Assembly: GCF_025847205.1 (NCBI RefSeq)
Contig: NZ_JAOYTH010000024.1
Span: 1 to 36,569 of the forward strand
Direction: 5' to 3'
DNA length: 36,569 bases
Origin: Pararhizobium sp. YC-54
Lineage (GTDB): Bacteria; Pseudomonadota; Alphaproteobacteria; Rhizobiales; Rhizobiaceae
Shown: piece after piece, positions 7,969 through 35,203 of the stretch
How positions within the stretch are numbered: position 1 is the stretch's first letter
Layout: each line of letters opens with the position of its first letter
Position numbers and translations under genes: made by a program
Notes under the pieces: model-generated
Told to the model about the DNA's origin: nothing
Seen by the model: the letters and a program-made list of their open reading frames with translations, nothing else
Database searches by the model: none

Positions 7969-7990
7969 TCAGGATATTTGCGGGACAACG

Positions 7991-8872: not shown

Positions 8873-9080
8873 CCTTGCCATTTTCGCGCGCTTGCTATTC
8901 TTGGATTACTTGCCGGTCTTTGCCTGCCGGACCTCGGAAATGAAGCGCCCAGCCTAGCGGATGGACGCAATCGACGCCGAGACGCATGGACTGCCGGGAA
9001 TTTGCCGGGTAGGAATCTGAACGACAGGCACGCAGCATGGCTTCCGCCTGACATTGCAGCAGATTTTTTTCGGAGACCCC

Positions 9081-10157: not shown

Positions 10158-10205
10158 CGTCGATCGTCGTGCAGATCAAGCGACAGTCGCATGGGAACGT
10201 CGAGA

Positions 10206-11057
10206 TCACTCGATGATCGTCCGCCGCGCCTCAATGCGAGCGGCTCTCCATGACGACCAAGCGAAGGCAACGATGAACATCGCGGTCATCAGAAGCACGA
10301 TGGTCGGCGCCGGTGCGCTGTCGATAAAGAACGAGAGGTAGACGCCGGAAAACGATGCCACGGTCGCGACCAGCACAGCGACAACGAGCATCGTTCCCAT
10401 CGTGCGGGTCATCAGGAAGGCAATGGCTCCGGGGGCGATCAGCATGGCAATGGCGAGGATCAGCCCGACTGCCTTCAGTGCTCCGACGATCGTCAGCGAC
10501 AGAAGGGCGAGCAGCCCATAGTGCAGCCAGTTGACGCGCAGACCGACCGCTTTTGCCTGCGCGGGATCGAAGGCGTGCAACAGGAAATCCCGCCATTTGA
10601 CCGCAAGGATACCGGCCGTCACCAGCGCAATCAGGCCGGTTTCGAGGATATCGGGCCAGCCGATGCCGAGCATGTCGCCAAAGAGGATATGGTCGAGATG
10701 CACATCGCTCTGGATCTTGGTGTAGAGTACCAGACCAAAGCCGAACATGCCGGAAAAGACCACGCCCATCACCGTATCCTGCTTGATGCGGCTGTTTTCC
10801 TTGAGATAACCCGTCAGAAGTGCGCAGGACATGCCGGCGGCAAAGGCGCCGACTGCAAATGGCAGGCCGACGATGTAGGAGATCACGACGCCTGGAAAAA
10901 CCGCGTGCGAAATGGCGTCGCCCATCAGCGACCAGCCTTTCAGCACGAGAAAGCAGGAGAGCATCGCGGTCGGGATCGCCACCAGCACCGAGATCAGCAG
11001 CGCGTTGCGCATGAACGCGAATTCGAAGACGGCCGTGAGTGTGTCGAGCGAAATCAT
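10206..11057 (-). CDS. sitD: manganese/iron ABC transporter permease SitD
   Basis: 283 residues, very hydrophobic, with about eight membrane helices of the ABC-3 (metal) permease family. The LVLKGWSLMGDAISHAVFPGVVISYI segment near 40-65 and LKAVGLILAIAMLIAPGAIAFL near 205-225 are typical. ATG 11057 overlaps the sitC stop by four bases (ATGA). It would pair with SitC to form the membrane channel. The last gene of the sitABCD operon, it converges with the PLP-enzyme gene with about 50 bases between them. Confidence 0.9.
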   Translation of the reverse strand: MISLDTLTAVFEFAFMRNALLISVLVAIPTAMLSCFLVLKGWSLMGDAISHAVFPGVVISYIVGLPFAVGAFAAGMSCALLTGYLKENSRIKQDTVMGVVFSGMFGFGLVLYTKIQSDVHLDHILFGDMLGIGWPDILETGLIALVTAGILAVKWRDFLLHAFDPAQAKAVGLRVNWLHYGLLALLSLTIVGALKAVGLILAIAMLIAPGAIAFLMTRTMGTMLVVAVLVATVASFSGVYLSFFIDSAPAPTIVLLMTAMFIVAFAWSSWRAARIEARRTIIE

Positions 11058-11914
11058 CGGCCCACCTCCAGCGCTTCGGCACTGCGCCTGCGGGCCGCAA
11101 GCAGCCCGTGCTTCGGGGCAAAGACAAAGGCCAGGAGAAAGATCAGCGTCTGCAGCACGATGATAATGCCGCCGGTGGCGCCGTCGAGGAAATAGCTGAA
11201 ATAGGCGCCAAACAAGCTCGTCAGCGAACCGATCGCCACGCTGATCAGGATCAGCCGGGGAAAGCGGTCGGTGATGAGATAGGCTGTCGCGCCGGGCGTC
11301 ACCACCATGGCGATGACGAGAAAGGCGCCGACTGTCTGGAGTGCCGCGACCGTGCACGCGGACAACAGGGTAAAGAACAGCACCTTCAGAAATGTCGTGC
11401 GGATACCGATCGAACGCGCGTGGTTCTCGTCGAAGAAGGTGACCATCAGGTCCTTCCATTTGACTGTCAGGATGACCAGCGAGATCACGCCGATGAGGGC
11501 AAGCTGCAGGGTGTCGGCCGGTGTGATGGCGAGAATGTTGCCGAGCACGATCGTCTGGATATTCACCGAGGTCGGCGACAGCGACACCATGAACAGGCCA
11601 AGACCGAAGAAGGAGGTGAAGATCAGCCCGATGATGGTGTCTTCCTTCAGCCGGGTGCGCTGGTTCAGGAACAGCATCGCGCCGGCCGCAAGTCCGCCGG
11701 AGAAGAAGGCGCCGAGCGAGAAGGGCAGGCCGAGCATATAGGCGCCGGCCACGCCGGGGACGATTGCGTGCGAGAGCGCGTCGCCGATCAGGGACCAGCC
11801 TTTCAACATGAGGTAGGACGAGAGGAAGGCGCAGACGGCGCCAACCAGCGCACTCACCCACATGGCGTTCAGCATATAGTTATAGGTAAACGGCTCCGTC
11901 AGCGTGGCGATCAT
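11054..11914 (-). CDS. sitC: manganese/iron ABC transporter permease SitC
   Basis: 286 residues, second permease of the ABC-3 family, similar in layout to Sit[32 protein letters not shown] near 33-63 and [22 protein letters not shown] near 205-226, with seven to eight membrane helices. It overlaps sitB by four bases upstream and sitD by four bases downstream, so the four proteins are probably translated as a coupled unit. Two different permeases forming a heterodimer is the normal arrangement in SitABCD/YfeABCD systems. Confidence 0.9.
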
Positions 11915-12846
11915 TGGCCGTTCGCCTCCGGATCGGTCTCGGGCTTGGCCGGTTGCGAGACCATCTGGCCGCTCGCGCCGTACATGACCAGCGGCCGCTC
12001 GTCATCGGTGATGACAGACACCTGCCGCGGATCGGCATCGTCATGCAGGCTGTCGCCCCCAAGCACGAAGTGGCGCAGCACGCCGCCGAAGGCGAGCTCG
12101 AGGTTTTCCCGGGTAAAGGTGGTTTCGGTCGGGCCATAGGCAAGCACGGTGTTTTTCAAGAGAACCGTGCGATCGCAGAATTCCGGCACGCTACCGAGAT
12201 TGTGGGTGGAGACCAGCATGACCCGGCCCTCGTCGCGCAAGCCCATCAGCAGGCGAATGATCGCGTCCTCGGTCTTGACGTCAACGCCGGTGAAGGGTTC
12301 GTCGAGCAGGATCACCCGTCCATCCTGCGCCAGCGCGCGTGCCAGGAAGACGCGCTTCTTCTGCCCGCCAGACAATTCGCCGATCTGACGCTTGCGGAAG
12401 TCGCTCATGCCGACGCGGGCAAGGGCCGCTTCGACCGCGACATGATCTGCCTTCTTGGCGATGCGCAGCATGTTCATGTGGCCATAGCGGCCCATCATCA
12501 CCACGTCTTCGACAAGGACCGGGAAATTCCAGTCGACTTCCTCCGCCTGCGGCACATAGGCGACGAGGTTCTTCTTCAGCGCGTCCGGCACCGAAAGCCC
12601 AAGCACCGAGATGTCGCCGCGGGCCAGCCGGGCAAAGCCCATGATCGCCTTGAACAGGGTCGACTTGCCGCTGCCGTTGACGCCGACCAGCGCGGTGATG
12701 GTGCCGGTCGGGATTTCGAAGGAGGCGTCAAGCAATGCGCGATGGCCGTTGCGGTACGTCACGGTTGCACCGGAGACGCGAATGCCGCTGCCCGGCTGCC
12801 CCGTTGCCGGTCCTTGGTCTGGCCGGGCTTTGACCTGAAGGTTCAT
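11911..12846 (-). CDS. sitB: manganese/iron ABC transporter ATP-binding protein SitB
   Basis: 311 residues. Walker A GVNGSGKS at 55-62, Q-loop VPQAEEVDW near 98-106, signature LSGGQ at 158-162, Walker [13 protein letters not shown] at 178-189 and the switch histidine in [12 protein letters not shown]. The [13 protein letters not shown] stretch is typical of metal-transport ATPases (SitB/MntB/ZnuC class). It sits on the inner membrane face and drives SitCD. Four-base overlaps join it to sitA and sitC. Confidence 0.92.
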
Positions 12847-13748
12847 TGCGAAAGGCCTTTGGCGATGGTTTCGGACGTGACGCGCAGGAGGTCGATATAG
12901 GTCGGAACCGGACCGTCCGCCTCGCTCAAGGAATCAACATAAAGCACACCGCCGTATTTCGCGCCTGTTTCGCGCGCCACCTGCTGTGCCGGGTCGGGGG
13001 AAATCGTGCTTTCGGAGAAGACGACCGGGATGTTGTTGGCGCGAACGGCGTCGATCACCTTGCGGACCTGCTGCGGTGTGCCCTGCTGGTCGGCGTTGAT
13101 CGGCCAGAGATAGAGCTCTTTCAAGCCGAAGTCACGGGTCAGGTAGCTGAAGGCGCCTTCGCTCGAAACCAGCCAGCGCTTGTTCTCGGGGATCTTGGCT
13201 ATTTCTGCACGGATCGGATCAATCGTCGCCTCGATCCTCTTCTTGTAGGCCTCTGCGTTGGCCTTGTAGGTCTCGGCATTGGCCGGATCATATTTGACGA
13301 AAGCATCGCGGATATTGTCGACATAGATCAGCGCAGCCGAAGGTGACATCCAGGCATGCGGGTTCGGCTTGCCTGTGTAGGGGCCTTCGGCGATGCCCAT
13401 CGGCTCGACACCCTCGGACACGAAGACGCCTGGGACATCGTCGAAATTCTGGAAAAACTTTTCAAACCAGAGTTCGAGATTGAGCCCGTTCCACAGGATC
13501 AGCTTGGCGTCATGCGCCTTCAGGATGTCGCGCGGGGTCGGCTGGTAGTTGTGGATCTCGGCGCCGGGCTTGGTGATCGATTCGACCGTTGCGGCGTCAC
13601 CGGCAACATTCCTGGCCATGTCGGCGATCACGGTAAAAGTGGTAACGGCCTTGAATTTCTCCTGGGCCAAGGCGGCTCCCGGAGCGAGCGCCAAGGCTGC
13701 CAGTGCTGTTGCTGCGGCCAGGATCACGCGTCTCGTCTGATCGATCAT
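12843..13748 (-). CDS. sitA: periplasmic manganese/iron-binding protein SitA
   Basis: 301 residues with a signal peptide (1-28, ending AALA). The cluster A-I binding protein ligands are all present: His66 in EIHNYQPTP, His131 in NPHAWMSP, Glu197 in SSEGAFSYL and Asp272 in LYVDSLS, the H-H-E-D set of manganese/iron sites. [14 protein letters not shown] is typical of SitA/YfeA rather than ZnuA, and there is no His-rich loop, which argues against zinc. The ribosome site GGGAG precedes the ATG. It is first in sitABCD and is divergent from the Mur-like regulator. Confidence 0.93.
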
Positions 13749-13775
13749 TCCGTACTCCCTTGATTGTCGTTGACA

Positions 13776-13804
13776 GAACTAGGTGAATGATCTGCACAAG
13801 TCAA
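13776..13804 (-). promoter_or_regulatory. candidate sitABCD promoter
   Basis: On the minus strand, TTGACT (13804-13799) and TAGTTC (13781-13776) are spaced by 17 bases and lie 28 bases upstream of the sitA start. The -35 hexamer is good, the -10 weak. The -35 touches the Mur-box-like palindrome, so a regulator bound there would block polymerase. Confidence 0.45.
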
Positions 13805-13825
13805 TGCAAATGAGAAGCATTCGCA
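13805..13825. promoter_or_regulatory. Mur-responsive-type palindrome (MRS) upstream of sitA
   Basis: The 21-base site reads TGCAAAT, seven bases, then ATTCGCA; the two arms are complementary at 6 of 7 positions. This TGCAAAT-n7-ATTYGCA form resembles the manganese-responsive sequences bound by rhizobial Mur at sit promoters. It lies in the 120-base region between sitA and the divergent Fur-family gene and could serve both. Confidence 0.65.
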
Positions 13826-13868
13826 ACTAGCTATTTTCAAACCTGCCGCGCTTGGCTAGTGTGCAGCC

Positions 13869-14297
13869 ATGAAACAGAACAAGAATCGCGTTGCGGAATT
13901 GGAGGGCGTCCTGAGGGACGGCGGTGTACGCGTGACGCGCCAGCGTGCGGCAATCCTGAAGATTCTCGCCATTGCCGAAGACCACCCGGATGCAAGCGAA
14001 TTGCATCGCCGGGCCAAGGAAATCGACGCTACAGTCTCACTTTCGACTGTCTACAGAACGCTCTCGGCGCTGGAGCAGCAGGGCGTCGTGCATCGCCATG
14101 CCTTTGAAAGCGCCACGGCGCGATTTGAAACCGCAGATGCCCCGCACCACGATCATCTGATAGATATCGACACCGGCGCGGTCATCGAGTTCCGCTCTGA
14201 CAGGATTGAGCAACTGCAAGCCGAGATCGCTGCAGAACTCGGCTACGACCTCGTCCGCCACCGGTTGGAGCTCTACTGCCGTAAACGCAAGACTTGA
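13869..14297 (+). CDS. mur: Fur-family regulator, Mur-like (manganese)
   Basis: 142 residues. Winged helix about 1-85 (VRVTRQRAAILKIL, then VSLSTVYRTLSALEQQGVV) and dimerization domain with the HHDH metal motif (PHHDHLIDIDTGAVIEFRS). The structural CxxC zinc motifs are absent, as in rhizobial Mur. The gene is divergent from sitABCD with a palindrome of MRS type between them, so it probably represses sit when manganese is plentiful. No strong ribosome site is visible ahead of ATG 13869. An iron- or zinc-responsive Fur paralogue is the alternative; the neighbourhood favours manganese. Confidence 0.8.
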   Translation: MKQNKNRVAELEGVLRDGGVRVTRQRAAILKILAIAEDHPDASELHRRAKEIDATVSLSTVYRTLSALEQQGVVHRHAFESATARFETADAPHHDHLIDIDTGAVIEFRSDRIEQLQAEIAAELGYDLVRHRLELYCRKRKT

Positions 14298-14874
14298 CGG
14301 GCATCAGTCCGGGCGTAAGAAAACCTCCAAGGCGAAGCCATTGTAAACATTGGCAAGTCGCACTTGGAAATAGAATGTACCGGTCTCGGCTTCTCACCCG
14401 CTTGCGACAACTTTGCTGAAAGTGATCAAAATCCGATCGGGCCAATCCAGTGTCCCGGGAGAGGGGTCCTCGTCCGCAAGCCACGTGTCGCGCGGTACAT
14501 CTTGGGCGAGCATTGCCTTCAGCGTCTTCGCCGCCATGAGGACAGGTTCCGAAGGTGCCTTTGTCACGACCATGGCGACGCGGCTTCCGGCTGGAACACG
14601 CAGCGGCCCGTTCGGCCTTGCGGCGCGAGAGAACACCACCACAAAATAGGCCGGCAAAAAGTGTCACCCAAGCATGCACAATGGTGACGATGACACTACC
14701 AAAAACACTATCATGATGGCGCGGCTCCAGCCACCAAGCCCAGAAATAAGCCAGGGGCCTAGACACCCGGCCCGAAAAAATATTCCGCCCGGTGGCATCC
14801 GCTAAGTGCGGGAACGAGAAGTGGTTTGCCCGTTTGGTCGGGGTCGCCTGTCCCGTCGACGGCGCAAAGATGGG
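14298..14874. other. 577-base region with no firm gene
   Basis: Between the Mur-like gene and galE no ORF can be assigned with confidence. A minus-strand frame of 87 residues (14394-14657) is described separately. GTGTCA at 14661-14666 is matched in inverted form by TGACAC at 14691-14696, but this has no evident partner. No RNA gene was recognised. Confidence 0.5.
14394..14657 (-). CDS. small hypothetical protein
   Basis: 87 residues from a TTG start; an in-frame TGA nine bases before the start bars a longer form. The sequence has a balanced make-up (alternating hydrophobic stretches such as SRVAMVVTKAPSEPVLMAAKTL and a tail TLDWPDRILITFSKV) and looks more like a soluble folded protein than a random shadow frame. 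No family was recognised and the ribosome site is poor, so it may be a non-gene or a gene remnant. Confidence 0.3.
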   Translation of the reverse strand: MPAYFVVVFSRAARPNGPLRVPAGSRVAMVVTKAPSEPVLMAAKTLKAMLAQDVPRDTWLADEDPSPGTLDWPDRILITFSKVVASG

Positions 14875-15861
14875 TCACGACCGCACCTCCAGGCCGAAGA
14901 ATGGCGCAGCAGTCCGCACGATGGTTGCGAGGTCGGAATATTCGGGCAGAAACCCGAGCACCTGGTGGGCGAGGCTGGCGTCCGCATACAGAGCCGGCGG
15001 ATCACCTTTTCGGCGGTGGCCGATAGCGATCGGGACATCTTGTCCGGTAACCTGATTGATCGTTCTGAGGACTTCCCTGATGGAAGACCCGCGCCCGCTG
15101 CCCAAATTAAGGGCCACGTTCTCGCCGCCCTTGTCGATATGCCTATATGCCAGCACGTGGGCACGCGCGAGGTCGGTCACGTGAACATAGTCGCGTATGC
15201 AGGTTCCATCGGCCGTTTGGTAGTCATCGCCGAATATCTTCAAGCGAGAATTCCTGCCTGCCGCGGCCAGCAAAGCCCGCGGAATCAAATGGGTTTCCGG
15301 ATCGTGCCATTCGCCGAGGTCACCATCGGGATCGGCGCCGCAGGCGTTGAAGTAGCGAAGCGCCACGTACCGCAGACCGAAAGCGGCGGCGTAGTCAGCG
15401 AGCATGTGCTCGGCGATCAGTTTTGTCCAACCGTAAGGATTGATCGGGACCTGTGGCGTCGCCTCGCTGACGGGCAGCGTCGCCGGGACGCCGTAGGTTG
15501 CGCAGCTGGATGAAAGGATGATCTTGTCGAGCCCCGCCTGCCGGCAGGCGTCGAGAAGCGATTGTGTCCCGCAGACATTGTTGCGGTAATATTTTGCAGG
15601 GTCGGTCACGGATTCGTCGACATAGGCTGAAGCGGCGAAATGGATGACGGCGACCGGTTTGTACTGTTCGATGATCTCGATCAGGTGGGGTGTGTCGAGG
15701 ATATCTCCTCGAATGAACGGTCCCCAACGTACGGATGAAAGATTTCCGGTCGTCAGGTTGTCATAGACAACCGGTTCGATTCCTTCCAAACGCAGCTGCT
15801 TTGCAGTGTGGCTGCCGATATAGCCGGCACCACCGGTGACGAGAAGACGCGGCGTAACCAT
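14875..15861 (-). CDS. galE: UDP-glucose 4-epimerase
   Basis: 328 residues, extended short-chain dehydrogenase fold. It interconverts UDP-glucose and UDP-galactose for surface polysaccharide. The NAD motif GGAGYIGSH is at 10-18, the SSSCATYG motif at 117-124, and the catalytic pair is Tyr143-Lys147 in NPYGWTK; RYFNACGAD and GTCIRDYVHVTDLA are typical of GalE/ExoB. The start codon shares a base with the stop of the upstream gene (TAATG), so they form one operon. Rhizobia often call this gene exoB, but no exo glycosyltransferase genes are visible here. Confidence 0.88.
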   Translation of the reverse strand: MVTPRLLVTGGAGYIGSHTAKQLRLEGIEPVVYDNLTTGNLSSVRWGPFIRGDILDTPHLIEIIEQYKPVAVIHFAASAYVDESVTDPAKYYRNNVCGTQSLLDACRQAGLDKIILSSSCATYGVPATLPVSEATPQVPINPYGWTKLIAEHMLADYAAAFGLRYVALRYFNACGADPDGDLGEWHDPETHLIPRALLAAAGRNSRLKIFGDDYQTADGTCIRDYVHVTDLARAHVLAYRHIDKGGENVALNLGSGRGSSIREVLRTINQVTGQDVPIAIGHRRKGDPPALYADASLAHQVLGFLPEYSDLATIVRTAAPFFGLEVRS

Positions 15862-18574: not shown

Positions 18575-18928
18575 TTAATTGAGCCTGAGCTCAACGCCCG
18601 GGTGCAGCTTCTTCAGATTTGGAAGTGACTTCGATTGCCATGGAAACTCCGACGTTCCGCGTACTGTCAGATGGACGTTCGGCCTGTTGCGCGCTTCGAT
18701 GGTGAGCTTGGCAAGCAGATTGATCCCGGAAGAATTGAGAAACTGCAATCCCGTCAAGTCTACGGTAACACGATCAGGCTCGGCCTCAAGAACGCTCATG
18801 ACAAGTACGAAAATCGGGGCGTAGGCCTCGGCATTCGGCAGGCGCATGGTCCCTTCGAAGTAGATTACTTTTTCTTCCGACCAGACGCGATATTCTTCTT
18901 CCTTGATTTCCATATTCTGTCTGCCCAT
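18575..18928 (-). CDS. STAS-domain protein, slr1659 type (anti-anti-sigma-like)
   Basis: 117 residues, one STAS domain. The [24 protein letters not shown]-terminus, [20 protein letters not shown] and the tail [20 protein letters not shown] match the slr1659-type regulators of cyanobacteria and others. Ser67 in NSSG is the position phosphorylated in SpoIIAA-like proteins. The start overlaps the stop of the kinase-like gene by one base (TAATG); the upstream extension of the frame is inside that gene and is not used. In the expected cycle the DUF6272 protein phosphorylates it and the PP2C protein two genes upstream dephosphorylates it. It is the last gene of the operon. Confidence 0.85.
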
Positions 18929-19488
18929 TAATTCGAGAAGTCGGGGACCGCCATAGACGCATAGGTTTCCAGCGGGATTTTGTTGCCCTGTTCCCTGGAA
19001 CCAAAAACCCATGCAAAGTGAACACCATAATCGCTCATTAGCGTCAGAAGTCCAAGCCCTGAGCTGCTCATGCTTGCTTGCGTCGCATTCGCTTCGATCC
19101 GCTCTATGAGGCTCTCGCCGGGATCGCCGGTTGTGATTTCTGAAAGCAGGTGCTGGAACCGCTGGGCTGTTGCCTTATCGATGAAATTGGAAACCTTCGC
19201 GCGAAAGGTGTTGGCCTCCATGGAGGCTTCCACGAGAACTTCACCGCCTTCGCGGAATTTTACGGCATTTTCTATCAGCTCATTGATCAGGTAGCCAACA
19301 TTGCACCGCACCTCTCTATAGAGGCTGCGGGATGTGCGGTAGCGCAATGCGACGAACTCGGCAACAAAATCGGAAGTGATCGCGCAGTGCTTAAAGCTGA
19401 GATCCAGCGGTCCGTCGAACAGGTGAAGCCGGGTGACGTTCTCGCCTGTACCGATCGTCAGATCTGCCAGCCCATACAAGGTGGTCAT
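18928..19488 (-). CDS. DUF6272/slr1658-type ATPase-like regulator (SiaB-like kinase)
   Basis: 186 residues. It has a GHKL-like fold with an N box [12 protein letters not shown] at 67-78 and a GLGLL motif at 144-148 ([15 protein letters not shown]), as in slr1658-type proteins. In the SiaABCD system SiaB of this family phosphorylates the STAS-like SiaC. The active-site Asn and Glu of the N box are intact. The gene starts 4 bases after the PP2C gene and overlaps the STAS gene by one, so the three are probably co-translated. Kinase activity is inferred from the family. Confidence 0.8.
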
Positions 19489-19492
19489 CAGT

Positions 19493-21853
19493 TCACCTGT
19501 GTCTCATGACAACGACTGTTATATCGTCGTGGATCTTCTGCGTGCCGATATGCGCCATTAGGTCTTCGATGATCCCGAGTTTGACGTCTTCAGCGCTTTG
19601 TCCATATCGCTGCCGCGCGCTCTCGCAAAGCCTCTCTATGCCAAAAAGCTCCCCGTCCCGGTTCTCTGCTTCCGTGACGCCGTCCGTGTGGAGAATGACC
19701 ATATCGCCATGGCCGAACGCAATTTCCCGCGTCGCCACGAACTGCGAAATATCCGGCTCCAAGCCAATCGGCAAACCGAGGTCAAGAGTGTCGATCCGCT
19801 CTACCACGCCTAAATTGCGAACCACGATCAACTCCTCATGCTGGCCGGAAAGCGTCAGGCGGCCTCCCTCGTAGTCTAGGAAAGCGAGGGAAAGATGCTT
19901 GTTGGTGCTGGTTCTGAGGAGATTCTTGTAGATGGCGCGGTTGACGCGATTGAGGAACTGCACCGGGTCTGTGTCGCCCGTTTCCTGCAGAGCCCGCGCA
20001 ACCGACTGGACCATCAACATCAACACGCCGCTCTCGAGGCCATGCCCCGTGACATCGCCGATACCGATTTTCAGCCGCCCGCCATCGCTTAGAACATCAT
20101 AGTAGTCGCCACCGACTTCGTCGGCGGGCCGCATGTAGGCCGCTATCTCCATTTCCGTGATTTCTTCAAGTTCGCCGACCTTGGGCAGAACCATCATCTG
20201 GATCCGCTTGGCGACGGCCAGTTCAGCGCCGAGACGTAAATTCTCGCCCCGCAGCTGCGTGTTCAAAGCCGAGATTTGCAGGTTCGCCTCTTCGATCTCC
20301 TTTGTGCGATCCTCCACCAGTTGCTCAAGATTCTCGGTATGAAAACTGATCTGCTCGGCCATGCGATTGAATGCGGCGCCGGCTTCGCCGACCTCGTCGC
20401 GGGTCGGAATATCGACCCTAACGGAATAGTCCTGGGCCTGGATGCGCTTGGCCGCACCGGCAAGCGCACTGATGCCACTGGTTATGCGCTTGGATATCGC
20501 GAATACAGCCGCAATGACGAAAAGCAGCGATACGAGGAGCGCCAGGATCTGATAGATTACGATCCTGTTCGTGGCCTGGGAAATTTTTGCCTGCGCAGCA
20601 AACAAAGACGCATAAATCTCCCGCTCTGGCACGACGATGCCAAGCGACATGGTTTCGCGCCGAACAGGGCCGGATAACCACAGGTTCGTCGGCTGCAGAT
20701 GCTTCACGATGACCAGATAAGGGACCTTCTCACCGTTTTCGTCGAGCATGATATGCTGAAGCAACCCATCCTGATCCAGTGGTAACTGCGCGATCTGCGG
20801 CTGCACGCTCCGGCGCAAGGAGCGGTCGAGACCTGTCACCCCTTCACTGTTGCCGGCGCTCGCTGTCTGAAGGCCGATCACCTTCTCCCCCACCGGGTTG
20901 ATGGCGACGACATTGCCGTCCGACATCGTCAGGAAACCAAATCCGTGGTCGGCAACCTTGACGTTCTCCACGATCTCCGCCAGCTGGTCGAGGGTAATAT
21001 CCGCTCCCGCAGCACCGGCCACGCTCTTGCCATCGGATGACAGGAGCGGCTGGAAGAAACTGACGATGAGTTTGCCGGTGATTGCGTCTGTATACGGTGC
21101 AGTTTGCGTGATGTTACTGCTTACCGGGCGCGATCCAGGGGTTTGTACCCATTGCTGCCACGACTCATAAAGACCCGGGAAGAAGAAGGTCCAGAACTCA
21201 GCCTCGTTGTGACCCGGGTAAAGCTTGTCGAAAGTCTGAGCTTGATTTGTATAGGGCGCCGTCCGGAAGATTGGCCGCTCCCTCGAGCCGATATAGTACA
21301 TCTGAAGCTTCGACTGGCCGTTCGCCAGCAGGCTCGGCGCAATGAGGTCCAGGACGGCGCTGTTTTCGATTTCCCGCTGGGCTTCAGGAAGCGGCACGTG
21401 ATTTGAATCCAGAAGATATCCCCAGACGCTGACGACGGACTGAGACCCAGGTCGATTCTGAGCCCATCCCCCCTTCGCATCGTAGGTGACGGTCACCGCT
21501 TCGGGGGCGCCACGCGCCAGTGCTTCCCCGATCTGGGTCTTTCTCGCGGGGTGGTCGATTTGCGCTTGCAGGACGCCGGCCAAGGTGCCGACGTCGGAAT
21601 GAACCTGATCCAGGAGCAGATTGACACGGGCGGCTGTCCCTTCCGCGTAGGAGCGGATGTAGTCCTGGTTGGCCCGTTCCAGACCCTGCCCAACTTCCGC
21701 CGTGGCATCGCGGGAAAGCCTCTGCACATTCCACAGCGCGAGACCGCCGCTGACGAGCAGATCGAACAAAACGGCGCCCCCTACGACAAGGACGAACTTG
21801 GCGCGAAATGAGCGCAGACCGAGACGGAAGGGGTGTTGCTGAGGCGCGTTCAT
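19493..21853 (-). CDS. membrane Cache-HAMP-PP2C (SpoIIE) phosphatase, SiaA-like
   Basis: 786 residues. Membrane helix 20-42, extracytoplasmic Cache-like sensor about 43-430, second helix 431-453, HAMP about 453-505 (KRITSGISALAGAAKRIQAQ and the DEVGEAGAAFNRMA end), coiled coil 505-545 and a SpoIIE-type PP2C domain 549-786. Metal ligands are visible in VGGDYYD (583-589) and GDVTGHG (599-605), with further Asp in FGHGDMVILHTDGVTEA. The layout equals SiaA of Pseudomonas, which dephosphorylates the STAS-like SiaC in response to an external signal. ATGA at 21850-21853 overlaps the fusion gene. It would set the balance against the DUF6272 kinases. Confidence 0.9.
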   Translation of the reverse strand: MNAPQQHPFRLGLRSFRAKFVLVVGGAVLFDLLVSGGLALWNVQRLSRDATAEVGQGLERANQDYIRSYAEGTAARVNLLLDQVHSDVGTLAGVLQAQIDHPARKTQIGEALARGAPEAVTVTYDAKGGWAQNRPGSQSVVSVWGYLLDSNHVPLPEAQREIENSAVLDLIAPSLLANGQSKLQMYYIGSRERPIFRTAPYTNQAQTFDKLYPGHNEAEFWTFFFPGLYESWQQWVQTPGSRPVSSNITQTAPYTDAITGKLIVSFFQPLLSSDGKSVAGAAGADITLDQLAEIVENVKVADHGFGFLTMSDGNVVAINPVGEKVIGLQTASAGNSEGVTGLDRSLRRSVQPQIAQLPLDQDGLLQHIMLDENGEKVPYLVIVKHLQPTNLWLSGPVRRETMSLGIVVPEREIYASLFAAQAKISQATNRIVIYQILALLVSLLFVIAAVFAISKRITSGISALAGAAKRIQAQDYSVRVDIPTRDEVGEAGAAFNRMAEQISFHTENLEQLVEDRTKEIEEANLQISALNTQLRGENLRLGAELAVAKRIQMMVLPKVGELEEITEMEIAAYMRPADEVGGDYYDVLSDGGRLKIGIGDVTGHGLESGVLMLMVQSVARALQETGDTDPVQFLNRVNRAIYKNLLRTSTNKHLSLAFLDYEGGRLTLSGQHEELIVVRNLGVVERIDTLDLGLPIGLEPDISQFVATREIAFGHGDMVILHTDGVTEAENRDGELFGIERLCESARQRYGQSAEDVKLGIIEDLMAHIGTQKIHDDITVVVMRHR

Positions 21854-23028
21854 CGAGGTTTGCGTCCAGATGCCACCCAGATCGGCCAGCCGGCATAACC
21901 TTTGGGATGGAGGGCAGCGAGGATATGGTCTTGGAAACCTTGACGGAAGCGTTGGATGAATTCAGAAGAATCGCCACGCTTCACGGACATTTCACCGGCA
22001 TAGACATTTTCCCAGGCAGCAATTACGTCGGCGAAGTCCTGCGCATCCCCATCCAGGTTGGTGACCATGAATGACTCGACGACGATGTCTTCGAAGCCGG
22101 CATCGGCGAGATACCGCCGGCTTTTGGGTCCAAGTTCTACGTCCATCTCGAAATGGCTGAACAGCTTCGCGACTTCGTTATACGTCCATTGAATGCTCTG
22201 TGATCGAGGTTCGCCGAGACAATGCGAATTTTTCTCGTTGGTTATGTATACCCGTCCTCCAGGCTTGCAGATTCGGTAAAGCTCCGCCAGAAGCGCGTCC
22301 GGCCGGTTGAATATCTGCAGCGAATGGCGGCAACTCACGAAGTCGAACTGATTGTCCTCAAGCAACATCTCGGACGCGTCGCCATAGGTATATTCGATAT
22401 CGGTGATGCCGAAACCGGCTGCCACGTCGCGCGCATACGCAAGACTTGCCTTCGAATGGTCAAGCGCGACAATTCGCGCTGGCTGGAACTCTTTTTGGAC
22501 AAGCACGACGAAATCACCGATGCCGCAGCAGATATCCGCCATCGTGATTCCGGAGCGCATTCCGTGGCGAGGAAGGATTGTGCGCTCATGGCGCCAAGTC
22601 ATCTTCGTTTGCGTCCGCAGTATCGAAATAAAACTCGTGTTCTCCACGAAACTCTGGCCAGGGTAAAATTTCGAGTCGTAAACCTCGATCGTTATCTGCG
22701 GTTCGATCTTGTTCAGATGCCCGAACATGCGAGTGGTCCAGCCGACGACACTTGAGGTGACGATCACGAAGCGAATATCCGGCTTCGCCTGACATGCGTC
22801 GAGAACCACTCGCGCAAAGGCATGAAAAGCTGTGTTGTTCATCTGAACGAGGCGCTTCACATTTATGTAGAGAACACCGCGCACCTGATCGATCGCCTCC
22901 TTTAGCATCGATATGTTCACTGCGATCTCATCGATCGAACGCGGGCGAACCACGCCGGAAAGAGAAAACTCTTGGCTGTTGACGTCAAACTCTGCCTTGA
23001 AGGGTATGGAAAGGCCTGCCGTGCTCAA
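21850..23028 (-). CDS. STAS-like domain fused to SAM-dependent methyltransferase
   Basis: 392 residues. Residues 1-135 resemble a STAS/SiaC domain: FKAEFDVNSQEFSLSGVVRP, GVLYINVKRLVQMNNTAFHAF and DIRFVIVTSSVVGWTTRMF; Thr66 in MNNTAF lines up with the phosphorylated Thr/Ser of SiaC and SpoIIAA. Residues 160-275 are a class I methyltransferase: motif I DICCGIGDF (165-173), acidic Asp190 in VALDHSKAS, YGDASEM, FDFVSCRHSLQIF and CKPGGRVYI; the remainder (about 275-392) would be a cap or target-binding part. Start TTG 23028 overlaps the previous stop (TTGA), with GGGAG nine bases before. No domain pair of this kind is known to me. The substrate is unknown; methylation of a protein or small molecule switched by phosphorylation is the inference. 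Confidence 0.82.
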   Translation of the reverse strand: MSTAGLSIPFKAEFDVNSQEFSLSGVVRPRSIDEIAVNISMLKEAIDQVRGVLYINVKRLVQMNNTAFHAFARVVLDACQAKPDIRFVIVTSSVVGWTTRMFGHLNKIEPQITIEVYDSKFYPGQSFVENTSFISILRTQTKMTWRHERTILPRHGMRSGITMADICCGIGDFVVLVQKEFQPARIVALDHSKASLAYARDVAAGFGITDIEYTYGDASEMLLEDNQFDFVSCRHSLQIFNRPDALLAELYRICKPGGRVYITNEKNSHCLGEPRSQSIQWTYNEVAKLFSHFEMDVELGPKSRRYLADAGFEDIVVESFMVTNLDGDAQDFADVIAAWENVYAGEMSVKRGDSSEFIQRFRQGFQDHILAALHPKGYAGWPIWVASGRKPR

Positions 23029-23543
23029 CTCACAACTCCCTCAAGAGGCAAATCCACAACGAGCGTTATCGATGGGGGAGCACTATTTTCCAAGCGGATC
23101 TGAGCATCGAAGTTGATCGCGAGATCCAGAAAAACGACATCCCGACTTGGCGTCAGGCCGGTTGAAATGGAATCGAGATAGTGGGTCAGCGCGTCTTCCC
23201 GTCGTGTATTCGACACTGCTTCGCTAAAGAATTGTCTCTGGCGAGAAAGGCACGGGAAAGTGAGTTTCACCCGCTCCGTTCGACCATGCCGATAGACCGC
23301 ACAGCCGATCTGCCCGTCGGGAGAGCCGCCGCGAAACGAGACCTCCAATAGCTCATTGAGGGCTGATGAGAAGAAGTTCGCGTGTCGAACGGGATCTGTG
23401 CGGTTGTGACTAATTATTCGGGCTATGAAGGTCGACAACTGATCGCAATGGTGCCAATTCGAAAGAAAGGTTTCCATCTCCATCTCAATCTGAACCAAGG
23501 GCTCGAAGGTTGCTTCCACGGGCGCTTTTTCCGCTACATCCAT
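23025..23543 (-). CDS. degenerate DUF6272/GHKL-like protein
   Basis: 172 residues from ATG 23543, chosen for GGAGAAGGAGAC just upstream (the ATG at 23597 is also open). The N-box-like SSALNELLEVSF near 78-89 and the order of predicted elements run parallel to the intact kinase-like protein at 18928-19488 (N-box, FxxxVSN/LTFPC strand, SRQRQFFSEAVS helix, C-terminal helix and strand), but the Asn of the N box (E-N) is replaced and the GLGLL motif is not kept (reads VVFLDLAI). It is therefore probably a pseudo-kinase or a binding partner of the neighbouring STAS-like fusion, whose gene it overlaps by four bases. Family membership is inferred from alignment by eye. Confidence 0.6.
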   Translation of the reverse strand: MDVAEKAPVEATFEPLVQIEMEMETFLSNWHHCDQLSTFIARIISHNRTDPVRHANFFSSALNELLEVSFRGGSPDGQIGCAVYRHGRTERVKLTFPCLSRQRQFFSEAVSNTRREDALTHYLDSISTGLTPSRDVVFLDLAINFDAQIRLENSAPPSITLVVDLPLEGVVS

Positions 23544-23701
23544 GCCGTCTCCTTCTCCTCCAGCAGAACTCTGCCACGGCGTCTTAAAACTCTCCACACC
23601 GATTTATAGCCCGCTTGAACTTACGGGCAGTATTTGAACGGCGCGCCGGTCCTCGGTTTGAGTCTCGAACCTGAGGCTTACGACAGATGCGAGAAGCCCT
23701 G

Positions 23702-25378
23702 CTACAACATTACCAACGAAGACTGATGAAGGAACTCGTCGATTGCCTCCGCTGGCATCGGAACGCCCAGGAAATATCCCTGCAACTGGTCGCACCCGTA
23801 CTTCTGGAGCCACGTTACCTGACCTCGCGTCTCCACCCCCTCGGCGGTGACACGCATTCCCAAGCCATGAGCGAGAGCGATTATGAATCGGACGATCGTC
23901 TGGCTCTTCTCGTCGCTCTCGAGATCCTTGATGAAATATTTGTCGATCTTGATCGTATCGAACGGGAAGTTCTTGAGATAGCTCAGAGAGGAATAATAGG
24001 TTCCAAAATCATCGAGCGAGATCTGAACGCCGAGTACATTTAAGGTATTGAGCGTATCCAGATTATTTATCGTTCGCTCCAACAACACGGATTCGGTGAT
24101 TTCCAGCTCGAGGCGATCAGCACGCAAACCGACCGCATCGAGTGTCTGGGCTACCCGATCCGTCAAGCCTTCACGCAAAAATTCCGCTGGGGAAAGATTG
24201 ACGGCTACCCTGAACTGGGCGGGCCAAGTCCCCGCTGCTCGGCAGGCCTGCTCCAATACCCATTGCCCAATTTCGCTCATAAGGCCGTCAGATTCGGCCA
24301 TAGGAATGAAGACACTCGATGGGATCAGACCTACGAGAGGATGACGCCATCGCAAAAGCGCTTCAAAGCCTACAATCGAAAAGGGCGGTTTCACGAGAGG
24401 CTGATACTCAATAAAAAATTGACCCTCTTGAAGGGCGACCCGCAAGCTGCGGCGCAACATCTCGCGCTGCTCCAGGACGATGAGCATGGAGCGGCTGAAC
24501 GTCCTTGCGCGACCGCGGCCATCTTTCTTTGCCGCGTAGAGCGCAATATCGGCAGTCTTCATCAACTGCTCGATCTCGTTTCCATCCCCAGGAGCTACGG
24601 CAACCCCCACGCTGGCTCCTACAAAAACATTGATGCCCTCTACCGTGAACGGCTCCTTGAAGGCGTTGACGAGCGCGTCTGCCAAGCGCTCGGCCTCGCG
24701 AGGCTGGTCGACTTTCCACTGGATGACCGCAAATTCGTCACCCGCCAGTCGGTAAGCACGCTCCCGTTCCCCGAGCACGCCCTCTATTCGTTCCGCCGCC
24801 ATTTTGAGAACGGCATCACCAGCGCCGTGGCCCAACGTGTCATTGATCGGCTTGAAATCATCAAGATCTATTTGCATGACGGCCAGCTTCGCCCCGGCTG
24901 GCACCGGTAGGGTACCCCGCAACTCATCGCTGAATTGGCGCCGGTTTGGTAATCCCGTCAGAACATCATGGGTCGCCTGGTGAAGAAGAAGCGCGCGGTC
25001 GCTATCGCTTTGACTGGAGGTATCACGACTGATCGAGTTTCTTTCCGTTTCAACAACCCCGATGCCGCGAGCGGTGCGAAAGACGAGCAGGGTGCGACGC
25101 TCACCCGTTGTTGCCTCTGCAATTTCGACGCTTCGCGGCACACCGCTCGCAAGTACGGATTCTACGGCGGATTTTGGGTTAGGAGCCAGTAGCTCAGGGT
25201 AGACGCGCCACAAGGTTGCGTTGACCAGGGAGTCAACAACGTATGTTTCGCTGTGTCTTGGCGAGCAGTCGATGAGGTCAAAGCTCTCGTCATAGAGCGA
25301 GATAAGCTCGTCTGTTTGTGTGAAGAAGTAGCGTTCGATTGAAGATGAAGCAGACAACGTCGTATCAGCGTCCCGCAT
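23702..25378 (-). CDS. GGDEF-EAL protein with PAS-like N-terminus
   Basis: 558 residues from ATG 25378 (GGGAGAGG upstream). Residues about 15-110 resemble a PAS domain. GGDEF domain about 130-300: metal and substrate residues in DVLTGLPNRR and IDLDDFKPINDTLGH are present, and the signature is RLAGDEF (212-216). No RxxD inhibitory site lies before it. EAL domain about 315-555 with FEALLRW (338-344), NLSP, EITES, LDDFGTYYSSL (Gly to Tyr next to the usual TG), IKIDKYFI, AEGVET and QGYFLG, so metal ligands look intact. It may both make and break c-di-GMP. The gene is the first of the operon and would be its output, as SiaD (GGDEF) is in SiaABCD. Confidence 0.88.
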   Translation of the reverse strand: MRDADTTLSASSSIERYFFTQTDELISLYDESFDLIDCSPRHSETYVVDSLVNATLWRVYPELLAPNPKSAVESVLASGVPRSVEIAEATTGERRTLLVFRTARGIGVVETERNSISRDTSSQSDSDRALLLHQATHDVLTGLPNRRQFSDELRGTLPVPAGAKLAVMQIDLDDFKPINDTLGHGAGDAVLKMAAERIEGVLGERERAYRLAGDEFAVIQWKVDQPREAERLADALVNAFKEPFTVEGINVFVGASVGVAVAPGDGNEIEQLMKTADIALYAAKKDGRGRARTFSRSMLIVLEQREMLRRSLRVALQEGQFFIEYQPLVKPPFSIVGFEALLRWRHPLVGLIPSSVFIPMAESDGLMSEIGQWVLEQACRAAGTWPAQFRVAVNLSPAEFLREGLTDRVAQTLDAVGLRADRLELEITESVLLERTINNLDTLNTLNVLGVQISLDDFGTYYSSLSYLKNFPFDTIKIDKYFIKDLESDEKSQTIVRFIIALAHGLGMRVTAEGVETRGQVTWLQKYGCDQLQGYFLGVPMPAEAIDEFLHQSSLVML

Positions 25379-25750
25379 CCTTGCCTCTCCCTTCCGTTGC
25401 GTACCGCCCATGTAGTGCAAGCACTAGTCCATCTGCGAAGTCGATGTTATTCCAATCCTTCCATTTCATTAGAACTATCGCGGAATGTGTGATGGTCAAT
25501 ACCGCTTGACTCCAGACGGTTCTCGCCGTCGCGCATTCCGCGTATTCTTTTAACATTCGCCACTACAACATGCAATTTTGACGATTGTTCAACGTAGGAT
25601 ACCGATGGATGCTGGAAGCCGATCTCAATGGCAACTTGTTGGGCGTCAATTGTTGGTCCCAGAGCAAAATGATCTGAACCCTTCAAACCGGATCGATTTT
25701 GGCTAGAGTTTTCCGGTGATTTTTCCTGGCTGGGAAAGGAACGGAAGACG
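25379..25750. other. intergenic region upstream of GGDEF-EAL gene and IS3 remnant
   Basis: 372 bases. No gene is supported. The part next to 25378 must hold the promoter of the signalling operon on the minus strand, but no clear hexamer pair was seen. From about 25669 the sequence TGATCTGAACCC looks like an insertion sequence end; the rest up to 25750 would be the leader of orfA. Confidence 0.45.
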
Positions 25751-25975
25751 ATGAAGGCATGGCAGTTTTCGGACGCTCAGAAGGCGTTCATTCTGAAGCA
25801 GGGTGATGAAGGGGTGACGGTCGCGGAGATCTGCCGGAAGGCGGGGATCAGTCAGGCGACCTACTTCAATTGGAAAAAGAAATATGCCGGTCTATTGCCG
25901 CCGGAGATGAAGGAGCTGAAGGAGCTCGAGGACGAGAATGCGCGATTGAAGAAGATCGTCGCCCGGATGCCTTGA
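25751..25975 (+). pseudogene. IS3-type orfA transposase, truncated
   Basis: 74 residues: KAWQFSDAQKAFILKQGDEG, then VTVAEICRKAGISQATYFNWKKKYAGL (a helix-turn-helix) and the ELEDENARLKKIV leucine-zipper start that precedes the OrfA end in IS3-family (IS407-like) elements. The family sequence would continue some 12 to 15 residues beyond LKKIVA; here it ends after RMP, and orfB is absent. So only the first part of the element remains, probably inserted or recombined between the two operons. The frame is intact up to the break. Confidence 0.85.
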
Positions 25976-31183: not shown

Positions 31184-32239
31184 TCAGATGGTCGTATTGA
31201 AGGGAACAGTAATCGAGCCGTCGAGAATGCCCTTTTTGGCAGCTTCGATTTCCGGCATGATTTCCTTGATCTTGGCGACGACGTCCGCCGGACCCTGCTC
31301 CAGGAAGAGCGGCGATACAATGAAGTCGATAACGCCGGTGTCCAGTCCGGTCTTCTCATGCGTTCCGCCCTTCCAGTCAGGGCCGAGCGCCTTGGTCACT
31401 TCGTTGTAGAGAGAGATGCCGAAGTCAAGCTGAACGATGCTACTGATCGATTTCGGCCCCTGTGGGAACTGCGCCTTGTCGAGAACGCTGACGATGCGGC
31501 CTTCCTTCTCATTTGCCGCAGCGATGATGCCGGCGTCGGTCGCAGCTGAATCGGTCTGGATGAAGTCGATACCGTCATTGAACATCTGCGCGGCGATTTC
31601 CTGGCCCTTCGCCGGGTCCTGGAACGAGCCCGCAAAAGCCACGGTCACCGTTGCCTGCGGATTGACGGAGAGAGCGCCCGCCTTGACGGCGTTGAAATCC
31701 GCGTTGATCGGCGGAATGGAAATGCCGCCAATGAAACCGACCTTGCCGGACTTGCTCATCCGCCCGGCGAAAATGCCCGAGAGATAGCAGCCGAGATAAT
31801 AGTCGTAAGATACGGTAACGACATTAGGGATCGCTGGCTCCATCGGATCGCCAAAGAGCTGGATCCATTTGACTTCGGGATAGGACGGCGCCAGAGCCTT
31901 GAAGGGCTCGGCCACTTCATTGAAGGTTGAGACGATGACGGTGGCACCGGCATCGCAGAGCGTGCGGAAGATCGTCTCGTAGGTGGCTGGATCCTGCGCA
32001 TAGACGGCACGATACTCGAATCCCTTCTCTTCCGAGAGTTTCTTCAGATTGGCGATCATCGTATCGACGGGGCCGCTATCACCTGCCGATTGCGTGTGGA
32101 CGAGAGCGACCAGTCCGCCTTCGGCATGGGCGACCGCAGGCAGCAATCCGCCCGCCAGCGCCAGCACCGCTGTGCCGACGGAAATTTTCAGAAAGTCGCG
32201 CCGATCGAACGAGGTCTGGTTTAAAATATTGTCAGTCAT
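31184..32239 (-). CDS. BMP-family substrate-binding protein (PnrA-like)
   Basis: 351 residues. A twin-arginine signal (FDRRDFLKISVGTAVLALAGGLLPAVAHA) directs export in folded form. The mature part is a BMP/Med/PnrA-type binding domain (LVALVHTQSAGDSGPVDTMIANLKKL, SYDYYLGCYLSGIFAGRMSKSGKVGFIGGISIPPINADFNAVKAGALSVNP), whose characterised members bind nucleosides. AAGGGAACAG precedes the ATG. It sits between two hairpins and is followed by the ATPase and permease genes, the complete set of one transporter. The ligand is probably a nucleoside, nucleobase or related compound, by family and by the RutR-like regulator. Confidence 0.88.
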   Translation of the reverse strand: MTDNILNQTSFDRRDFLKISVGTAVLALAGGLLPAVAHAEGGLVALVHTQSAGDSGPVDTMIANLKKLSEEKGFEYRAVYAQDPATYETIFRTLCDAGATVIVSTFNEVAEPFKALAPSYPEVKWIQLFGDPMEPAIPNVVTVSYDYYLGCYLSGIFAGRMSKSGKVGFIGGISIPPINADFNAVKAGALSVNPQATVTVAFAGSFQDPAKGQEIAAQMFNDGIDFIQTDSAATDAGIIAAANEKEGRIVSVLDKAQFPQGPKSISSIVQLDFGISLYNEVTKALGPDWKGGTHEKTGLDTGVIDFIVSPLFLEQGPADVVAKIKEIMPEIEAAKKGILDGSITVPFNTTI

Positions 32240-32270
32240 CTTCTGTTCCCTTTTTTTGGTTGGTTGGTTG

Positions 32271-32295
32271 ACCGGGCAGCACCGCTGCCCGGTCT
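32271..32295 (-). repeat. stem-loop between NIPSNAP and binding-protein genes
   Basis: GACCGGGCAG (32271-32280) and CTGCCCGGTC (32286-32295) form a perfect 10-pair stem with a loop of five, which can close one pair more. It lies 4 bases after the NIPSNAP stop. On the transcribed strand it is followed by AACC repeats and a run of A, not T, so it should not terminate. It is adjacent to the start of the highly needed binding-protein gene, suggesting an mRNA processing or stability signal. Confidence 0.55.
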
Positions 32296-32298
32296 TCG

Positions 32299-32619
32299 TC
32301 AGACTTGCGGAGAGTAGGAAGCCGGGTTCATGATCATGACATCCTGGCGCTCAATGGCGTTTAGCGCCCAGATTTCGCCGATGAATTTCTGCCAGTCTGG
32401 GTCGGCATACATCGCCGCCCGCCGGGCCTCACGGTCCGCAAGGTTTTCATAGGCCCACATCAGCACGGTCGTGTGCAGGGTGCCGATCTCCGACACATAG
32501 AGGCCGACGAACCGGTTGAGATGCCGCTTCTGCACCGGCAGGCCTTCTGTCTGGTATTTTTTCATCCAGCCATCGACCGTGCCGGGGCGAAAAGTATAGG
32601 TGCGGTGTTCCAGGATCAT
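32299..32619 (-). CDS. NIPSNAP-family protein
   Basis: 106 residues, a single NIPSNAP domain (ferredoxin-like fold): [22 protein letters not shown] at the start and [30 protein letters not shown] in the middle are typical. Such small proteins occur in many catabolic operons and their function is mostly unknown; they may dimerize and bind small molecules. It lies 13 bases after the GMC oxidoreductase gene. Confidence 0.85.
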
Positions 32620-32632
32620 TGCCGGTCTCGCT

Positions 32633-34255
32633 TCAGCTGTTGAGAATGAAATCTGCGCAACGCTCGCCGATCATGATCGCCGGTGCGTTGGTGTTGCCGC
32701 TGGAAATGATCGGCATGATGGAGGCATCGGCGACCCGCAATCCTTCGACGCCGTGTACCTTCAGGCGCGCATCCACCACCGCCATCGGATCATTGCCCAT
32801 CTTGCAGGTTCCAACGGGGTGGAACGTCGTCATCGCGGTCGCCCGCAGCCATTTCGACAGATCAGCATCGTTAAGCGCTGCCGGTCCGGGCGCCAATTCC
32901 TTGCCACGATATCCGTCGAAAGCGGGTTGGCTGATGATGTCGCGGGTCAGCCTGATGCCGTCGATCATGGTGCGCATGTCGAAGTCGGTCTGCAGATAAT
33001 TGGCAAGGATCTTCGGGGCGGCCATCGGGTCGGGCGAGCGCAGAGTGATTTCGCCACGGCTTTCCGGATTGACCGGACCGACGCGCAGGGTGAAACCATG
33101 GTTGGCCTCGACCGTCTCGCGCTTGAAGGGGTTCGGAAAGTGCAGGTTGGCGGTCTTCTCCAAAGCCGGCATGAAATGAAGCTGGATATCCGGTGCGACA
33201 AGGTCCGGCCGCGAGCGAACGAAGGCGCCAGCCTCATAGGGAAAGGTCGTGGTGATGCCTTCGCCGAACAGCATGCCCTGGATGACCGACAGCGTCAGCT
33301 TGTCGGCACGCAGATCCGAATAGAGCGTCACCGGCTTGCGGCATTCCCAGGACATCACACAGTCGACGTGGTCCTGAAGGTTCTTGCCCACTCCGGGGAT
33401 GTCCTGCACAGTATCAATGCCATGCGTGCGCAGTTCGTCGGCGGGGCCGATGCCCGATAGCAGCAGGGTCTGCGGCGAATTGACGGTTCCAGCGGAAAGC
33501 ACCACCTCGCGCTCGGCATAGGCCTTCCGCGTCATGCCGCGATAAAGATATTCCACGCCGACGGCGCGGCCCTGCTCGACAATGACGCGGTGGGTGTGCG
33601 CCTGTGTCATCACTGTCAGGTTGGGACGCGACAGGGCAGGGCGCAGAAATGCAAAGGATGTCGACCAGCGCTTGCCCTTGCGGATCGTGAAATCATAGCG
33701 CCCGAAACCCTCCTGTTCGATGCCGTTGAAATCATCGTTGAGCGGATAGCCGGCCTCGCTGCCAGCTTCGTTGAAAACATCCAACAGGCTGTTCCAGCCG
33801 CGCGCGCGGCAGACGGTAAGCTCGCCATTCTTCTCGTGGAAGGCGTCGTCGCGCTCGATGTGCCCTTCGGAGCGGCGGAAGGCGGGCAGTACCTCATCAT
33901 AGGACCAGCCTGGAAGACCCATCTGCGACCAGCGATCATAATCGTGACGGTTGCCGCGCACGTAGATCATGCCGTTGATGGTTGAGGTTCCACCCAGCAC
34001 CTTGCCGCGGGGCCAATAGAGAGAGCGGCCGTTGAGATGGGGCTCGGGCTCGGTGCGGTAGTGCCAGTTGTAAATGCCGGAGTGAAAAAGCTTGCCCATC
34101 AGCATCGGCAGGCGGAACAGCGGATTGCGATCCTTGCCGCCTGCTTCCAGTAGCAGCACCCGGTTGGCCGGGTCGGCCGAAAGCCGGTTCGCCAGTACGC
34201 AACCTGCAGACCCCGCGCCAACAATGATGAAATCGAAATGGTCGCTTCGCGCCAT
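32633..34255 (-). CDS. GMC-family FAD-dependent oxidoreductase
   Basis: 540 residues. FAD motif [20 protein letters not shown] close to the N-terminus, the GMC signature [18 protein letters not shown], and the C-terminal catalytic region with HPVGTCKMG and [18 protein letters not shown]. Choline dehydrogenase, alcohol and sugar alcohol dehydrogenases belong here. The start ATG 34255 follows the UDG-like stop by two bases; a GTG at 34264 is open but overlaps that gene. It probably oxidizes an alcohol group on the operon's substrate; assignment as choline dehydrogenase is not supported by the neighbours. Confidence 0.88.
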
Positions 34256-34257
34256 GG

Positions 34258-35109: not shown

Positions 35110-35131
35110 TTCGACACTCCTCCTTTTTCAC

Positions 35132-35203
35132 TGACTGCGATGCTAGTCAAAACCTGACCAAAGTGTCAACTTATTAAACGAAAAAAACTGACCAGATCGT
35201 CAG
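35132..35203. promoter_or_regulatory. RutR-like operator cluster between operon and tetR gene
   Basis: Two 16-base sites, 35154-35169 (cTGACCA, two bases, gTGTCAa) and 35188-35203 (cTGACCA, two bases, TcGTCAg), each match 11 of the 14 defined positions of the RutR operator TTGACCA-n2-TGGTCAA by eye. Their centres are 34 bases apart. A third inverted pair, TGACT (35132-35136) and AGTCA (35145-35149), lies closer to the operon start. The whole lies within the 198-base intergenic region, 23 bases upstream of the operon's first gene and about 105 before the TetR gene. Confidence 0.6.

Follow-up and report, generated by a model that had tools for sequence, protein, structure and literature searches.

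A bgr-type partner-switch operon of Pararhizobium sp. YC-54 with a putatively disabled kinase/STAS pair and a candidate methyltransferase effector

Gene content and orthology of the operon

Positions 1 to 36,569 of contig NZ_JAOYTH010000024.1 from Pararhizobium sp. YC-54 (assembly GCF_025847205.1), a stretch that we refer to in its full length as the window, contain a six-gene partner-switching operon that runs on the minus strand from 25378 to 18575. All six open reading frames (ORFs) are free of internal stops, and we call them R, S, T, U, W, and V after their counterparts in Sinorhizobium meliloti:

R (BgrR-like), 23702..25378, minus strand: N-terminal region without Pfam match, then GGDEF (AGDEF site) and EAL domains
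S (BgrS-like), 23025..23543, minus strand: degenerate slr1658-type kinase-like protein of 172 residues
T (BgrT-like), 21850..23028, minus strand: degenerate slr1659-type STAS domain plus class I S-adenosylmethionine (SAM) methyltransferase; TTG start
U (BgrU-like), 19493..21853, minus strand: membrane sensor with HAMP domain and SpoIIE/PP2C phosphatase
W (BgrW-like), 18928..19488, minus strand: slr1658-type serine kinase with intact N-box and GLGL motif
V (BgrV-like), 18575..18913, minus strand: slr1659-type STAS protein with LNSSG acceptor motif; alternative in-frame start at 18928

The best start of S is the ATG at 23543, which is preceded by GGAGAAGGAGA. Neighboring genes overlap by 4 bases at S/T and at T/U, U and W are separated by 4 bases, and a gap of 158 bases lies between R and S; R may be cotranscribed with the other five genes or may have its own promoter. 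The 18913 start of V leaves a gap of 14 bases to W, and the ATG at 18928 touches the W stop codon. The 18913 start is conserved, as an ATG is present in all 79 orthologues matched to residue 1 (W-V gaps of 8-25 bases), and only 5 of these 79 have an in-frame ATG at the 18928 offset. A preliminary description of this DNA, made from the sequence alone, had five of the six genes overlapping or within 5 bases of each other; this holds with the 18928 start and is lost with the conserved one. Scans of the window with Rfam (gathering threshold) and for tRNAs gave no match.

The operon is almost certainly the orthologue of bgrRSTUWV on the pSymB replicon of S. meliloti, which is already known: published work describes it as a partner switch that controls the diguanylate cyclase BgrR. 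Identity to pSymB of strain 1021 is 81% for R, 74% for S, 86% for T, 85% for U, 74% for W, and 82% for V, and the annotated pSymB of strain ml59 (L019) has the six genes in the same order as the window. A tblastn search with T matched 120 plasmid records from Sinorhizobium, Rhizobium, Ensifer, Aminobacter, and Phyllobacterium, including pSymB of 1021. The order R-S-T-U-W-V agrees with the published gene letters. Baena et al. 2019 reportedly described bgrRSTUWV as a hexacistronic operon and found that BgrV, when unphosphorylated, inhibits BgrR. A search for publications matching SMb20447-SMb20452, which we take to be the locus tags of the S. meliloti operon, found none.

Passages of two papers (PMC8457831, PMC7647112) describe BgrU and BgrW as a phosphatase/kinase couple, BgrV as a STAS protein, and BgrR as the cyclase, and name BgrSTUWV as a set; we matched the letters U, W, V, and R to genes by such passages, and S and T by gene order. 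Among the matches listed for Bgr proteins, only these two papers were relevant. A combined search for partner switch, STAS, methyltransferase, SpoIIE, and cyclic di-GMP (c-di-GMP) found no paper, and related terms gave, in the passages returned, another system only. S and T are unmentioned in the passages of PMC8546604 and PMC6628131 where the glucan work is cited, and none of the terms sought appears in the text available of PMC9495663 or in the examined part of PMC13430161. Compared with these published passages, the new elements are the probably disabled S/T pair and the occurrence of S-T-U-W-V without R.

Switch proteins, the S/T pair, and the methyltransferase

The catalytic residues of R, U, and W and the acceptor residue of V are conserved. 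R matches Pfam GGDEF (3e-42) and EAL (6e-70), and the AGDEF site and main EAL catalytic residues are kept in 82/82 aligned R proteins. U matches SpoIIE (1.4e-39) and HAMP (4.6e-12), with a weak dCache match below the cut-off, and its PP2C motifs are conserved in 82 rows; it is the single SpoIIE match at 1e-8 in the genome of the window, and the single match in S. meliloti 4H41 likewise lies in the operon. W scores 165 bits with NF047703 (slr1658) and V 134 bits with NF047705 (slr1659), both above the curated cut-off of 100, and V also has weak STAS_2/STAS matches. In a PDB sequence search V had weak STAS matches, and neither W nor S had a relative. In SpoIIAB and SpoIIAA, the Asn of the N-box binds the metal and the second Ser of the SSG motif is the acceptor. 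Residues were counted in 102 distinct operons, obtained from 108 aligned rows by dropping six as T duplicates: W keeps N-box E70 and N74, and V keeps S62, in all 102. The partner-switch operon and c-di-GMP arm proposed in the preliminary description are supported.

S and the N-terminal domain of T resemble W and V at a distance. In profile-to-profile comparison (hhalign), S aligns with W at E 1.2e-6 and residues 1-121 of T align with V at E 5.8e-8, which bears out the extra degenerate kinase-like protein and the additional STAS-like domain joined to a methyltransferase. NF047703 matches S with 26.7 bits (E 3e-6), and NF047705 matches T residues 11-113 with 37.9 bits (E 1.8e-9 for the isolated domain), which confirms the STAS similarity sought in the N-terminus of the fusion. 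Since both scores of the proteins from the window lie below the cut-off of 100 bits, S and the N-terminal domain of T appear to be distant slr1658/slr1659 relatives only. The same profiles match 29/29 scanned orthologues of S and 19/19 of T (E<=0.001 in both cases). Pfam has no match for S at E<=1, and the one PDB match to the STAS part of T is at chance level. By BLAST, the STAS part of T also matches the slr1659-type protein of a separate slr1658/slr1659 module, L178 (E 2e-6). The fold assignment of S and of the STAS part of T is predicted from these sequence profiles. A phage relation of S and T was considered and dropped, as PHROGs gave only weak matches for T and none for S. The ml59 pSymB record labels the S gene (L019 7486-8004) ubiquinone biosynthesis methyltransferase UbiE, an assignment without support in the profile scans.

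The S/T pair is very probably a catalytically disabled copy of the kinase/STAS pair. An active GHKL serine kinase has the N-box Glu and Asn and the GLGL motif; S keeps the Glu in 102/102 distinct operons, yet its residue 68 is never Asn (Val, Thr, Ile, Leu, Met, or Ala in 102/102), and in the hhalign alignment the stretch opposite the GLGL of W is non-glycine and the motif is missing. T66, which aligns with the Ser62 acceptor of V, is Thr in 63 of the 102 operons, Ala in 23, Val in 13, Leu in 2, and Met in 1. The residue differs between operons with and without R: the 88 R-bearing operons have Thr (63), Ala (23), or Leu/Met (2), and all 14 R-less operons have Val or Leu. Phosphorylation of both STAS domains, as anticipated in the preliminary description, is therefore unlikely as a general rule, since T66 is Val, Ala, Leu, or Met in 39/102 operons.

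The C-terminal part of T (about residues 159-392) is a class I SAM methyltransferase, with a Pfam match at about 165-262 (Methyltransf_25, 4e-18) and methyltransferases among its PDB sequence hits. Residues A164, D165, C167, C168, G169, G171, D172, and F173 of motif I are present in 108/108 rows. Among the six proteins, T is the most highly conserved: across 81 loci its identity to the window is at least 74% with a median of 79%, and the other five proteins have lowest values of 44-62% and medians of 62-77%. Mean column identity, computed for proteins other than R and U, is 0.81 for the methyltransferase of T, 0.62 for its STAS domain, 0.54 for S, 0.62 for W, and 0.68 for V. T adjoins S and U in 108/108 rows. 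We considered T as a housekeeping UbiE and ruled this out because of the STAS-like fusion and because S and U flank it in every row. A methylation output of the operon is plausible, and we lean slightly toward the methyltransferase of T being an effector that the switch controls.

Distribution of the operon, its R-less form, and the glucan output

The gene set stays together. We scanned genome contigs with the T alignment and took the best 80 of 255 confirmed stretches, a selection biased to near relatives; in these 80 loci and pSymB all six genes are present (81/81) and colinear in 80/81, L041 being the lone non-colinear locus, with R on the opposite strand. The scattered distribution that would have spoken against the preliminary description was not seen. 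Among 101 relatives, the genome of the window included, 10 genomes have full-length T and the same 10 have W; 8 of them fall among the 26 genomes of the window's own genus, and the operon is patchy in this sense. In a wider search across the phylum, 8/398 genomes had the slr1658 family at 1e-8, and six of these come from the bacterial family to which the window belongs. Of two close R homologues in one genome (G720; 67% and 61%), just one lies in the fetched operon.

More distant loci were collected by searching for S, which gave 4 matches in 385 genomes of the class (own genome included) and 21 in 397 genomes of the order (own genome and G054 included). Of the resulting 26 loci, 3 were taken from the genomes of the class, 19 from those of the order, and four from the relatives (G058, G054, G020, and G002); five other operon-bearing relatives (G003, G004, G008, G017, and G021) were left out. 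S-T-U-W-V is colinear in 26/26 of these loci. R precedes it in 12 and is missing from 14, and a search at 1e-110 found no R orthologue elsewhere in the 14 R-less genomes, with only 43% identical matches in G803 and G725. This suggests that the methyltransferase and the disabled kinase-like protein belong to the constant core and that the c-di-GMP enzyme is missing in some lineages.

In a tree of 52 of the 102 distinct T sequences (14 R-less, 38 R-bearing), a single branch separates the two kinds (support 100/96), which corresponds to one change; the root was placed at the midpoint, by which gain and loss of R are indistinguishable. The R-less side spans four families (f1, f23, f41, and f116), which weakly favors gain of R over loss. 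Against a late gain stands the L178 module (G877), in which a GGDEF protein lies beside the kinase and STAS genes, so that cyclases recur as partners in modules of this kind. In 10 of the 14 R-less loci, a divergent gene for a soluble SpoIIE phosphatase (U2) lies 0.3-2.7 kb upstream of S, accompanied by a HATPase_c_2 kinase in L160 and L163 and by a canonical STAS protein in L163; U2 was not found upstream of S in the other four (L156-L159). Judged by eye from translations, S is preceded in L156 and L158 by genes for an ATP-binding cassette (ABC) transporter and a creatinase-like protein; L122 and L123 also have an ABC transporter near S, and its ATPase is similar.

The known target of the switch is BgsA, a synthase of mixed-linkage glucan, which reportedly coexists with the operon. 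We recognized S. meliloti BgsA on ml59 pSymB by R599, D602, and R605-T-G-D608, residues described in a passage of PMC5567048. At 1e-20 the genome of the window has no BgsA relative (it is 99.78% complete in 54 contigs, and a gap is possible). A close BgsA (at least 79% identity) occurs in 6 of the 101 relatives, all operon-bearing, and in none of the 91 operon-less genomes; four of the 10 operon-bearing genomes, that of the window included, are without one. In a second search, of 27 genomes, a close BgsA (at least 78%) occurs in five, all R-bearing, and in 0/14 R-less genomes, some of which carry relatives with 34-40% identity. These counts are descriptive, as genomes of one genus are not independent. 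Because no BgsA relative was found at 1e-20, the published glucan output does not apply as such to the window strain, where R would act on another c-di-GMP target.

Upstream of R lies a fragment of an IS3-family transposase gene (window 25670-25962) with 92% identity to copies on Neorhizobium galegae replicons. Positions 1-15000 and 32000-36569 of the window carry ordinary metabolic, transport, and regulatory genes (10 of the larger ORFs of the window were scanned, one of which had no match), among them genes for a histidine kinase, a CoA transferase, a thiolase, an AraC regulator, ZnuA/ABC-3 metal transport, a GMC oxidoreductase, and a TetR regulator.

Readings of the operon and their meaning

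The preliminary description had filed the operon with the SiaABCD modules. The resemblance to SiaABCD of Pseudomonas aeruginosa lies in the shared logic of a PP2C phosphatase, a kinase, a STAS-fold protein, and a diguanylate cyclase, and the C-terminal part of U does match SiaA. The family scores nevertheless contradict membership, which we rejected: U reaches 134 bits with SiaA (cut-off 700) and R 95 bits with SiaD (cut-off 290), the SiaD model spans only the GGDEF part of R, and R carries an EAL domain as well. SiaC is a DUF1987 protein (as stated in a passage of PMC8457831), whereas V belongs to slr1659 and has no DUF1987 among its Pfam matches at E<=1, and the four named Sia components include no counterpart of S or T. 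A true SiaABCD-type module is thus highly improbable. W had likewise been assigned to DUF6272; it has no Pfam match at E<=1 and belongs to the slr1658 family, and we keep DUF6272 as a distant relation only (the kinase of L178 scores 28.2 bits, the cut-off being 26.6). A more Sia-like arrangement was seen by eye elsewhere, in L179 (G1037, 6289-7429), where SiaC-like and GGDEF genes lie together near a SpoIIE-like match.

Other systems share parts of the arrangement. In L178, kinase, STAS, and SpoIIE phosphatase genes are clustered and a GGDEF protein adjoins them, but there is no match to S or to the methyltransferase of T within the 13.5 kb read, and its GGDEF protein has only 27% identity to R over the GGDEF part. 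The Rsb and SpoIIA systems have the same kinase/STAS/PP2C logic, echoed by U2 near S in the R-less loci; unlike them, the six bgr genes include no sigma factor and have enzymes as effectors instead. Closest is the S. meliloti bgr operon itself, alike in its six genes, their order, and strand and different in the glucan synthase that the genome of the window lacks at 1e-20.

The phospho-switch of W, V, and U acting on R is known. The model that we favor, with moderate confidence, is that the U/W/V phospho-switch sets R and that the disabled S/T pair makes the methyltransferase of T a second effector. The kinase W would phosphorylate V at the serine of LNSSG, a site predicted from the motif, and the membrane phosphatase U would remove the phosphate; these roles of U, W, and V are published for S. 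meliloti. The phosphorylation state of V would then select its binding partner and so set the activity of the cyclase R. S would probably not phosphorylate the STAS domain of T but hold or cap it, and the methyltransferase would respond through partner binding, in competition with W and V, and not through phosphorylation of T itself. For the binding partners, the methyltransferase activity and its substrate, and the signal, we infer rather than observe. A binding-only relay controlling a methyltransferase fits because a pseudo-kinase, a pseudo-acceptor, and a conserved enzyme are combined, with S and T together in 108 rows. Three points weigh against the model: Thr at T66 in 63 of the 88 R-bearing operons makes phosphorylation possible there, the N-box Glu kept by S (102/102) may reflect a residual nucleotide role, and the sequence of T points to no methyltransferase substrate.

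The first of these points leads to an alternative in which T is switched in the classical way, with Thr66 phosphorylated by W and dephosphorylated by U in the R-bearing lineages. Its alignment with Ser62 of V, and the phosphorylation of SiaC on Thr68 (reported in a passage of PMC7647112), speak for this, but 25 of the 88 R-bearing operons have Ala, Leu, or Met at the position, and the R-less operons all have Val or Leu with the other genes present; we consider it unlikely. The operon could instead be a plain bgr operon whose sole output is c-di-GMP through R, with S and T as accessory regulators of R or V (T might, for example, methylate a switch protein) and with R lost from the R-less operons. 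All six genomes with a close BgsA among the 101 relatives carry the operon, and the GGDEF protein of L178 indicates that the cyclase partner may be old. Such a reading sits poorly with the absence of R from 14 of the 26 distant loci, without an R orthologue elsewhere at 1e-110, and with the conservation of T, the highest among the six proteins, and we rate it as possible but doubtful. Equally tentative is a broader form of the methyltransferase model, in which S-T-U-W-V would be a conserved unit whose general output is methylation of proteins or small molecules by a methyltransferase under the control of an inactive STAS domain and an inactive kinase; R would have joined a single time, in the common ancestor of the R-bearing operons, and elsewhere a second Rsb-type phosphatase/kinase/STAS set would take its place.

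Known outputs of partner switches are sigma factors and, more recently, cyclases. If the favored model, with the methyltransferase of T as second effector, is true, a methyltransferase-led switch would add another output class, and the inactivated kinase/STAS copy would mean that a duplicated switch pair can become a binding-only relay. The bgr operon should not be read as a mere glucan regulator, as the window strain and others keep it without BgsA, and the presence of the operon in S. meliloti makes the proposed roles of S and T directly testable in an established laboratory strain.

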